The position numbers and the translations under genes are program-made. From Xenophilus sp. E41 (GTDB lineage: Bacteria; Pseudomonadota; Gammaproteobacteria; Burkholderiales; Burkholderiaceae_C): a stretch of 64,000 nt of DNA. Below are positions 1,541 to 61,608 of the stretch, piece by piece. The notes under the pieces are model-generated. The model ran no database searches and had not been told where the DNA came from. It saw nothing but the letters and a program-made list of their open reading frames with translations. Positions within the stretch are counted from its first letter, which is position 1; the number at the start of each line of letters is the position of its first letter. The stretch is from contig NZ_QPIB01000009.1 in assembly GCF_003671765.1 (NCBI RefSeq), positions 62,001-126,000 on the forward strand, given 5' to 3'.

Positions 1541-1580
1541 CTCCAACGCCCGCGGGCCCTGTGTGGCCTGCTATCAATAA
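1541..1580 (-). repeat. Palindromic element copy 1 (pnp leader)
   Basis: This is a member of the dispersed element family also seen at 3961, 36074, 39163, 56430 and 60472. In + orientation it reads AACGCCCGC, a variable centre, then CCTGCTATCAATAAAGG. The GCTATCAA end lies next to the AAAGGAG ribosome binding site of pnp, so the repeat forms part of the translation start region. Confidence 0.55.
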
Positions 1581-1590
1581 AGGAGCAACC

Positions 1591-59428: not shown

Positions 59429-59730
59429 TGGGCAGAAAGAGAGCGATAGCCGGTCGAAAGTTCAAACCGATTGACCGGGAATGGACCGACACCACATCCT
59501 GGTAACTCCCCGAAACAACGCTCTGCGACGTCTGCGACGGACCATGCAACGGGCGTGCCCGCGTGTCGGATGACAGAGGAAAACCCTGTCAGTCGCTGCA
59601 AGTAACCGCTTTCAGGCGCCGAAATTAACCGGAAAGTCTGCGCAAAACCACAGGGCGAGCCCTTAGGACCATGCCCGGAACCCGCCTGATCGGCGACCGC
59701 GGGCGTGCAGACGGTTACAGATTCGCGCGC
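59429..59730. other. Intergenic region between esterase lipoprotein and mutL
   Basis: This 302-bp gap holds no convincing gene on either strand. It contains CCGGTC / GACCGG arms near 59450-59485 just upstream of the lipoprotein gene, which may belong to its promoter region. I see no clear -35/-10 pair. The rest is relatively AT-richer non-coding DNA downstream of mutL. Confidence 0.6.
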
Positions 59731-61608
59731 TCAGCGTCCGCGCAGGAACAGGGCGTCGAGTTCGCGAACGCTCAGCTGCCGCCAGGTTGGCCTGCCGTGG
59801 TTGCACTGGTCGGAGCGCTCGGTGGCTTCCATCTGGCGCAGCAGGGCGTTCATCTCCTCAAGCGTGAGGCGGCGGTTGGCCCGCACCGCGCCGTGGCAGG
59901 CCATGGTGCCCAGCAGCTCGTTCTGGGCGCGCTGCACCACGGTGCTGGCATCGTGCTGGGCCAGTTCGGCCAGCACGCTGCGCGCCAGCTCCACCGGATC
60001 GCCGTCGGCCAGCGAACTGGGCACCGCCCGCACCGCCAGGGTGCGCGGCGAGAAGGGCGTGATCTCCAGGCCCAGGGTCGGCAGCACCTCGGCGCAGGCT
60101 TCGGCGGTGGCGACCTCCTGCGGCGTGGCCGCGAAAGTGGCTGGAATGAGCAGCGGCTGGCTGGCGATGGCGGCGCCGTCGAGCTGCACCTTGAGCCGCT
60201 CGTAGACGATGCGCTCGTGCGCCGCGTGCATGTCGACGATCACCAGGCCCTGGCTGTTCTCGGCCAGGATGTAGATGCCGTGCAGTTGGGCGATCGCGCG
60301 GCCCAGCGGCCAGGCGTCGTCGGGCGCGCCGGCTGCGGCGGCGGGCGGCGCCACGAAGGGCACGGCCAGCGCCGGGAGCGCGGGGCGGTCGTCCTCGAGC
60401 CGCGGGCGGTTGGCCGCGGCCGGCGCGGGCGCCGCAGGCCACATGGCCGCCATGTCGCCCAAGCCGCGTTCCGCTACGAAATTGATAGCTGGTTGCGCCC
60501 AAGGGGCGGGCGCTGCGGGCACATTGGGCTTGAAAAGCGGGGCTGGCCGCCCGGTGGCGGCCTCGGCATCCGTCGCGCCGCCGGCGCGGGGGGCGGCCAG
60601 CGCGTTCTCGATCGCGCGGCGCACCGCCTGATGCACCTCGCGCCCGTCGCGAAATCGCACCTCGATCTTGGTCGGGTGCACGTTCACGTCGACGCGCGCG
60701 GGGTCGATGGCCAGGTGCAGCGCGAAGACCGGCTGGCGCTGGCCGTGCAGCACGTCCTCGTAGGCGCTGCGCACCGCGTGCGCGAGCACCTTGTCGCGCA
60801 CGAAGCGGCCATTGACGTAGAAGTACTGCTGGTCGGCGCGGGAGCGCGCGGCGTCGGGCACGCCGGCATAGCCGCTCACGCGCACCGGGCCCACGCCGTG
60901 CTCGACCGCCACGCTCTGGGCCACGAACTCGTCGCCGAAGACGTCCGCCAGCCGCCGGGCGGTGTCGCCTGCCGCCCGCCACTGCTCGACCAGCTTGCCC
61001 TCGTGCCAGACCGCGAAGCCGACCTCGGGCCGCGCGAGCGCATGGCGGCGCACGGCTTCCAGGCAATGGGCGAGTTCGGTCGCGTCGGTCTTGAGGAACT
61101 TGCGGCGCGCCGGCGTGGCGTAGAACAGCTCGCGCACCTCCACCGTGGTGCCGCGCGAGCGCGCCACCGGACGCAGCTCGCCGGTGCGGCCGTCGAGCAG
61201 CCAGGCGCTGTCGGCGTCGCCGTGGCGCGAGAGCACGCTCATGTCGGCAATGGCGTTGATGGCGGCCAGCGCCTCGCCGCGGAAGCCCATGGTGCCGACC
61301 GATTCGAGGTCGTCGAGGCTCGCGATCTTGCTGGTGGCGTGGCGCCGCAGCGCGATCGGCAGCTCCTCGCGCGGGATGCCGGCGCCGTCGTCCTCGACCG
61401 AGATCAGCCGCACGCCGCCCGCGAGCAGCCGCACCGTGACCTGCGTGGCGCCGGCGTCGAGCGCGTTGTCGACCAGCTCCCGCACCACCGAGGCCGGCCG
61501 CTCGACCACCTCGCCGGCGGCGATCTGGCTGATCAGCTCGTCGGGCAGTTCACGGATGGGACGCCGTCCGCCGGGCGGCGTCGGCAGGGAGGAGGGAAGG
61601 GCGCTCAC
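59731..61608 (-). CDS. mutL: DNA mismatch repair protein MutL
   Basis: This 625-residue protein has the GHKL ATPase domain (ELVDNALDAGATQV, EDDGAGI, GFRGEALAAI) in residues 1-330. A linker and a C-terminal dimerisation domain follow. A DMHAAHERIVYE motif near residue 459 matches the DQHA-x2-E-x4-E endonuclease signature with Gln replaced by Met, so nicking activity is plausible. Residues about 358-379 of the linker come from a palindromic element. The gene ends 302 bp before the esterase gene. Confidence 0.95.
   Translation of the reverse strand: MSALPSSLPTPPGGRRPIRELPDELISQIAAGEVVERPASVVRELVDNALDAGATQVTVRLLAGGVRLISVEDDGAGIPREELPIALRRHATSKIASLDDLESVGTMGFRGEALAAINAIADMSVLSRHGDADSAWLLDGRTGELRPVARSRGTTVEVRELFYATPARRKFLKTDATELAHCLEAVRRHALARPEVGFAVWHEGKLVEQWRAAGDTARRLADVFGDEFVAQSVAVEHGVGPVRVSGYAGVPDAARSRADQQYFYVNGRFVRDKVLAHAVRSAYEDVLHGQRQPVFALHLAIDPARVDVNVHPTKIEVRFRDGREVHQAVRRAIENALAAPRAGGATDAEAATGRPAPLFKPNVPAAPAPWAQPAINFVAERGLGDMAAMWPAAPAPAAANRPRLEDDRPALPALAVPFVAPPAAAAGAPDDAWPLGRAIAQLHGIYILAENSQGLVIVDMHAAHERIVYERLKVQLDGAAIASQPLLIPATFAATPQEVATAEACAEVLPTLGLEITPFSPRTLAVRAVPSSLADGDPVELARSVLAELAQHDASTVVQRAQNELLGTMACHGAVRANRRLTLEEMNALLRQMEATERSDQCNHGRPTWRQLSVRELDALFLRGR
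60472..60536 (+). repeat. Palindromic element copy 6, inside mutL linker
   Basis: On the + strand it reads GCTACGAAATTGATAGCTG, GTTGCGCCC, then GGGCGGGCGCTGCGGGCAC. It lies opposite to the direction of mutL and encodes part of the disordered linker (APAPWAQPAINFVAE). The + strand frame would encode IAGCAQGAGAAGTLG, similar to the peptides of copies 4 and 5. Confidence 0.65.

Follow-up and report, generated by a model that had tools for sequence, protein, structure and literature searches.

A large, old family of ~66-bp palindromic repeats in Comamonadaceae, found mainly behind gene 3′-ends and slow to change at its conserved positions

The 64,000-nt stretch of Xenophilus sp. E41 analysed here (NZ_QPIB01000009.1, positions 62,001–126,000; the window) carries copies of a dispersed, imperfectly palindromic repeat of ~66 bp, which belongs to a real, large and old family of a known general kind that was not found described in the literature searched. 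Copies of this repeat occupy the same sites in different genera, sit for the most part directly downstream of stop codons or between converging genes, change slowly at their conserved positions, show compensatory stem changes behind hemB and, when embedded in genes, are with one exception read in a single frame per orientation. We put the probability at about one half that this is an old Comamonadaceae family resembling repetitive extragenic palindromic (REP) sequences or miniature inverted-repeat transposable elements (MITEs), in which selection acts on the remaining copies, probably as hairpins at transcript 3′-ends, and whose upkeep probably depends on a putative trans-acting factor. Dispersed palindromes are usually regarded as species-specific selfish clutter. 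It is unusual that copies of this family keep their positions across genera, follow a frame rule inside genes, covary in the hairpin at one site and have been lost wholesale in close relatives, and the contrast within genera offers naturally paired genomes for testing the function of REP-like repeats, which is an old open question.

Results

The repeat unit was defined from 32 exact-pattern copies of the E41 genome, which aligned nearly without gaps (a single base was absent in 1 of the 32) and beyond the edges of which the information content dropped to background. The consensus reads TTTGCTA(C/T)(G/C)AAA(T/A)CGATAGCTGCTCGCGC, followed by 8 variable bases and then CGGGCGCTGCAGGCCGATTTGGCTTGAAA, and its left arm is AAATNNATAGCTGNNNGCGC. 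At the consensus level the unit is palindromic, with 73.6% of cells paired versus at most 47.7% when the register was slid, and its ends are only weakly inverted. The GCTAC present in half of the copies reads GTAGC on the opposite strand and can be compared, by its letters, with the REP head GT(A/G)G. The recurrent unit whose arms and core an earlier note on the window had outlined was thus borne out as a ~66-bp palindromic repeat. The 32 copies were used to build profile R1, and a broader profile, R2, was used alongside it.

Both strands of the 5.84-Mb genome were then covered with a strict pattern allowing 1 mismatch, which occurred at 188 places versus 0 for the reversed control, so that the genome-wide excess that the note had proposed to look for is present. 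All of the 150 candidates scored with R1, out of 16,362, reached E ≤ 5.3e-10. A looser consensus with 3 mismatches allowed gave no excess in the window (40 places vs 39.9 expected), and in 184 kb of the E41 genome the 9-mers with the strongest enrichment did not include the element.

Among 299 genomes of the host family, R1, scoring no more than 16 candidates in each genome, detected the repeat in 85 genomes and 47 of 141 genera. A related exact pattern occurred at 10 or more places in 50 of the 299 genomes (a count taken by hand from table rows), with a maximum of 275, and at none in 203, and its reversed form never exceeded 2 places per genome. The numbers of exact-pattern places differ sharply within genera: the four genomes of the genus of E41 (g1) have 93, 108, 0 and 0, and similar splits were found in g128 (96, 0, 0), g88 (28, 164, 0), g121 (56, 0, 4) and g15 (30, 0, 0, 0). 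In 180 kb searched from the element-free congeners G071 and G255, nothing scored above 13.6 bits with R1 or 11.1 bits with R2. At the order level, R2 matches from outside the family were seen in just 2 of 300 genomes drawn, one consisting of 600 contigs and the other being 89% complete with 6% contamination. Named relatives place the repeat in or near Comamonadaceae, and the nearest MutL relatives belong to Variovorax and Xenophilus. No plasmid record carried a window copy, an Acidovorax copy was found in 2 of 72,556 plasmid records, and 50,697 phage records gave 0 matches. The literature search returned no description of this repeat, in a literature where printed sequences are often split by spaces; the only near relative to emerge was the Betaproteobacterial repeat element (BRE), and one short piece of the core matched three unrelated papers.

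The age of the repeat is evident at mutL and hemB. The window copy in mutL (60470..60538, + strand; R1 62.3 bits) is antisense to its host gene (59731..61608, − strand; NCBIfam MutL equivalog) and encodes FKPNVPAAPAPWAQPAINFVA in the MutL linker. A copy at the same site was recognised by R1 at ≥15 bits in 24 of 27 other element-bearing genomes; the remaining three sites fell under this threshold, with 8.0 bits in G295, 9.6 bits in G262 and no match in G088. The site gave no R1 match in 5 of 5 element-free genomes (G071, G255, G005, G007 and G030). The earlier note had named orthologues of many genera always carrying the segment as an observation that would speak against its proposal; among element-bearing genomes this is nearly the case at mutL, yet R1 finds none there in the element-free ones. 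Among named records, 9 of 80 MutL loci have the element at the same site and in the same orientation, from Acidovorax, Simplicispira, Polaromonas, Rhodoferax, Curvibacter and one record labelled only as Burkholderiaceae; the named Variovorax and Xenophilus loci gave no R1 match at this site. The linker peptide W.Q..(M/I).F (window ~60470–60540) persists in several Comamonadaceae records without a recognised DNA element, and may be a short linear motif that the element left in the protein.

Two further genes of the window host an element. The copy in miaA (56423..56489, − strand; R1 48.2 bits; host gene 56066..57085, − strand, NCBIfam MiaA equivalog) is in the sense orientation, encodes 22 residues in a variable loop ahead of the SLEP motif and has counterparts inside miaA at four other loci (L150, L153, L164 and L167). 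At the miaA locus of another genome (L192, 14797–15891), the variable loop holds a different repeated insert of TASEARQSTQPV-like units ending in GLPRFARND, so that gene-embedded repeats have been taken up by this loop more than once. In the ybbP-like FtsX permease gene (37847..40429, − strand; Pfam FtsX), the sense site at 39160..39221 (− strand; R1 25.0 bits) is a degraded copy or a look-alike and sits in a helix that orthologues keep at equal or nearly equal length. All three reading frames are open and the genes are named by NCBIfam or Pfam, in line with the in-frame placement that the earlier note had described, with the reservation that the permease copy is weak. The clean insertion boundaries expected in orthologues were not seen: MutL length around the site was unchanged in both congeners without a recognisable element, permease length was unchanged in the one congener where the orthologue was found, and MiaA in congeners without a recognisable element was shorter by only 6 or 11 codons. 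This boundary comparison fails because these gene copies are old, and recent insertion of the embedded window copies was ruled out, as other genera are filled at the same sites.

Behind hemB, an R2 match at or just past the stop codon was found in 25 of 30 element-bearing genomes, representing 15 of 17 genera, and these elements often provide the final codons and the stop. This site and another intergenic site (L035) lack the element in both G071 and G255. In one genome (G125, locus L390), where the element is absent behind hemB, another perfect hairpin, read by eye, occupies its place. The thrC site (L045) contains the element in E41 and in G177, a 91%-identical relative, and is cleanly empty in G071 without evident target duplication, which is one clean empty site; the remaining aligned intergenic sites are less clear, several of them lacking synteny past one flank. 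All 13 of the top copies for which both flanks could be mapped in G177, out of 16 tried, are common to the two genomes, so that no recent movement is seen. At an E41 locus near C22 position 692135 (L019), the outer arm carries a short local duplication, ATCAATTTGGT occurring twice, which G177 does not have at that site.

Constraint on the element was assessed from 12 orthologous copies of E41 and G177. Differences amounted to 15 of 276 conserved positions (5.4%), 26 of 249 intermediate positions and 55 of 238 variable positions (23.1%), compared with 21 of 101 positions just outside the element (20.8%) and 208 of 2622 in the wider, mostly coding flanks. Change at conserved positions was therefore ~4-fold lower than at variable positions. 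The gene-embedded copies were compared with random synonymous codons drawn from the genome's own usage. The mutL copy scored 67.1 position weight matrix (PWM) bits vs 14.0 ± 7.3, a score reached by 0 of 3000 randomisations, and the miaA copy scored 56.3 PWM bits vs 4.5 ± 9.7, and a codon artefact was thereby ruled out for the window copies. The permease site poses a puzzle, since its DNA is element-like far past the synonymous expectation (34.6 PWM bits vs −19.8 ± 6.1), yet it lies in a helix common to orthologues.

Compensatory change was evaluated on 26 hemB copies located by a sequence-only model and aligned with MAFFT. The inner stem contained 18 compensatory double-changed cells vs 7.1 ± 2.1 in shuffled alignments, 6 double-changed pairs vs 3.6 ± 0.7 and a covariation of 0.220 vs 0.114 ± 0.017, values that were each reached in 0 of 500 shuffles. 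The inner stem of 26 mutL copies, used as a control, gave no significant signal (cells 90/500, pairs 104/500, covariation 32/500).

The gene context was derived for 93 distinct copies of the E41 genome, mostly high scorers and not a random sample, with genes called by a small, purpose-written codon-based finder trained on the window. Seventy-six of these copies are intergenic and 17 lie within genes, although ~93% of the window is coding. Seventy intergenic copies were divided among 40 codirectional, 24 converging and 6 diverging gaps, the background being 104, 17 and 18 of 139, and converging gaps were thus enriched (24/70 vs 17/139, p = 1.5e-6). Gene 3′-ends make up 88 of the 140 gene ends flanking intergenic copies (p = 0.0015), at a median distance of 9 bp, and 21 gene stops are located inside an element. 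Within codirectional gaps the element showed no strand preference (15/26).

The intergenic copies of the window illustrate these settings. The best window copy (36060..36127, − strand; R1 67.4 bits, E = 3.7e-20) lies between converging genes that end at 36027 (a branched-chain amino acid permease component) and at 36150 (a CrtC/lipocalin-like gene), and the orthologous site in G177 is also filled. A near-perfect palindrome at 22712..22772, in which two right arms stand face to face and overlapping R1 matches score 26.2 bits (−) and 23.3 bits (+), separates the converging genes 22248–22682 (+) and 22779–24581 (−) and has a folding z-score of −4.16. A partial or degraded copy at 3952..4004 (+ strand; R2 23.4 bits, and R1 19.2 bits at 3966–4010, +) lies between codirectional neighbours, one gene ending at 3924 and the next starting at 4012.

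Of the 17 embedded copies, 16 use one reading frame per orientation, a count that unites two partly overlapping sets of 11/12 and 12/12; the exception is C46:36538 (L140). Sense copies encode an ATKxIAxxAGxAGAAxxF-like peptide and antisense copies an FKPNRAAAPAPxARAAIDFIA-like one. The consensus has two open frames per orientation, so stops alone do not account for the frame rule. The stop of the host gene falls within the element for two of these 17 copies (L356 and L364).

Discussion

The distribution of the copies suggests a history in which the repeat would have spread through the genome long ago, taking sites mainly close downstream of stop codons and in converging gaps and only rarely inside genes, where one Ala/Gly/Pro-rich frame per orientation was tolerated. 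The surviving copies would no longer be passive: their core and, at least behind hemB, their hairpin appear to be kept by selection. This hairpin most likely acts at the transcript 3′-end, in termination, in stabilisation of the end or in separating converging transcription, a reading consistent with the biased siting, with stops falling inside elements, with covariation at hemB and with the replacement hairpin of G125. Maintenance probably needs a trans-acting factor, putative at present, whose loss in some lineages would lead to wholesale loss of the set; such a factor is suggested because genera are split between genomes with many copies and with none and because the mutL match is missing in all five element-free genomes. 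In a more specific form, which we consider rather doubtful, a binding protein or conversion machinery would hold hundreds of 66-bp palindromes, the mutL and miaA copies included, near a genome-specific consensus over the age of the family, and its loss would let the whole set fade within a genus.

Several observations weigh against selection on 3′-end hairpins under the control of a common factor. No trans-acting factor was identified. The all-or-none distribution is imperfect, since R1 matches occur in 11 of the 203 genomes lacking the pattern, so that the pattern misses some diverged members, since genus g99 is intermediate with 4, 53 and 6 places, and since G088 has 28 exact-pattern places yet no mutL match; the models were moreover trained on E41 and few other genomes, and diverged subfamilies may score as absent. 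The copies compared with G177 were picked for high score, from which we estimate a divergence deficit of at most two-fold. The hemB signal weakens when the outer arms are included (25 cells vs 16.0 ± 2.8, 1/500; 9 pairs vs 7.1 ± 1.1, 47/500), RNAalifold predicts just 5 pairs on the hemB copies, and the test concerns a single site, with shuffles that ignore relatedness and a stem drawn from the consensus. When copies were sampled without regard to site, consensus RNA folding showed no covariation, and copies of the E41 genome fold only moderately better than shuffled ones (mean z −1.4 and −1.6). The mutL core persists without hairpin covariation, so the hairpin alone does not explain all copies. 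No terminator-like site in the window coincides with the elements at 36060, 22712 and 39160, and classical intrinsic terminators were rejected for the window copies on this ground.

A selfish REP-like element moved by a single-copy REP-associated tyrosine transposase (RAYT), with copies that are variously decayed insertions, appears unlikely to us. The genome does encode one Y1 transposase, matching the NCBIfam RAYT model just under its cut-off (L031:1462–2157, corresponding to C32:153596–154285), at a locus that we take to precede gltB. In many element-bearing genomes the element or its left arm, read by eye, sits downstream of the RAYT stop and ahead of a conserved TGTCCC motif, with profile matches at this position at L031, L097 and L111, and a link to RAYT may therefore exist. 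Y1 matches are also slightly commoner in genomes with at least 5 scored element matches (54/64 vs 167/235, p = 0.036). However, 281 of the 299 family genomes encode this RAYT subfamily, with or without elements, and RAYT was therefore rejected as the cause of element presence or absence; G256 and G270, two element-bearing genomes that each consist of a single contig, gave no match to it at E ≤ 1e-30. The inverted flanks of RAYT itself are, at many of the loci inspected, of GGGGTCAGATTCCAATT type, which is a different sequence from the element, and the surroundings of RAYT in 21 element-positive loci contain 5 matches in ~108 kb, no denser than the 184 kb of E41. Decay alone, moreover, would predict neither a low rate of change at conserved positions nor the hemB covariation.

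The persistence of the mutL copies can also be approached from the double-stranded DNA. Were the repeat a dispersed binding site of a chromosome-organising or nucleoid protein, selection would act on the DNA sequence and not on an RNA hairpin; the mutL copies, which keep the left arm AAATNNATAGCTGNNNGCGC beyond the prediction from codon usage and without hairpin covariation, would fit this reading, and the split distribution inside genera would suit a lost binding protein. We nevertheless regard this possibility as improbable, because the pair covariation at hemB counts against it and the bias towards 3′-ends and converging genes is not obvious for a chromosome-organising site. Orthologous copies slightly resemble the family of their own genome, with an identity excess of 0.034 at hemB (p = 0.010) and 0.055 at mutL (p = 5e-5), which fits such a protein and is equally a hint of homogenisation within genomes by conversion. 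Concerted evolution of this kind, by which even coding copies would be held near the genome consensus, agrees with the genome-specific middle segments, with the mutL copy being far nearer its own consensus than synonymous codons predict and with the excess persisting within base class (hemB p = 0.014, mutL p = 0.002). It is nonetheless quite improbable as the main explanation, as the excess is small (0.03–0.05) and weaker without three genomes (hemB p = 0.10, mutL p = 0.04), and site-specific variants at mutL are common across genera, as plain descent predicts.

Identity with BRE, known from Bordetella and several Comamonadaceae, is very unlikely. BRE occurs 29 times in Polaromonas sp. JS666 and 13 times in Delftia acidovorans, and some BRE copies are located entirely inside coding sequences (PMC3110155). 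Both repeats are thus dispersed in Comamonadaceae and sometimes lie in coding sequence, and by host range BRE is the nearest known repeat. The same paper describes it as ~90 bp long with partial forms of 40–60 bp, as present in Bordetella and as forming tandem arrays of variable copy number (PMC3110155), and the ~66-bp element differs from it in length and layout, in a comparison based on the published description. Head-to-tail arrays of the present element were absent in the stretches searched, the 184 kb of E41 containing only two weak neighbours (L141, 7155 and 7224) and, at 22712, the inverted overlap. The outside-family matches, in just two of the 300 order genomes, likewise speak against BRE, in a sample of which Bordetella is not known to be part.

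In its general kind, the family resembles several known systems. REP/RAYT systems, as described in PMC2817692, share with it short imperfect palindromes in more than 100 copies per genome, mostly extragenic, together with a RAYT-like gene. They differ in that an inverted pair of the present element around RAYT is absent in 20 of 21 element-positive loci (profile matches near RAYT occur in 4 of the 21, on both sides only in L097, and in none of 15 other loci), in that its orthologous copies are conserved across genera and in that 17 of 93 copies lie inside genes. Rickettsia palindromic elements (RPEs), to which the earlier note had likened the repeat, are palindromic units found in-frame in unrelated genes, ~150 bp long and nearly half of them in genes, according to PMC10969869. 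The likeness holds for the fixed tolerated frame, seen in 16 of 17 embedded copies. It does not extend to length or to location, 76 of the 93 classified copies being intergenic, and the three copies in window genes are old, are common to other genera and are not seen as insertions relative to orthologues lacking them, MutL and the permease having the same length and MiaA being partly shorter. The broader description that the note had given holds: in a betaproteobacterium of high GC content, a palindromic family is dispersed through the genome and at times lies in genes without breaking the frame.

Correia, ERIC and RUP elements are short non-autonomous palindromic repeats at intergenic sites, as is the present repeat; it may differ from these MITEs in that no target duplication was evident at the few sites available, no parent insertion sequence was found and the ends are only weakly inverted.

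Other features of the window

Five of the six window positions that the earlier note had listed hold a copy, those at 36060, 60470 and 56423 being strong and those at 39160 and 3952 weak. The sixth, at 1541, is unsupported, as R1 scored only 9.2 bits there (E = 0.055 in one search and 0.32 in another). Two sites that the list did not contain are the palindrome at 22712–22772 and a weak, uncertain copy at 25984..26044 (− strand; R1 17.9 bits, R2 18.3 bits), which is antisense within an outer-membrane efflux protein gene. A scan of the window with Rfam gave 0 matches at the gathering score. Separately from the repeat, two 300-base stretches in neighbouring genes (31545–31844 and 32796–33095) are 82% alike, and these genes are probably tandem paralogues.

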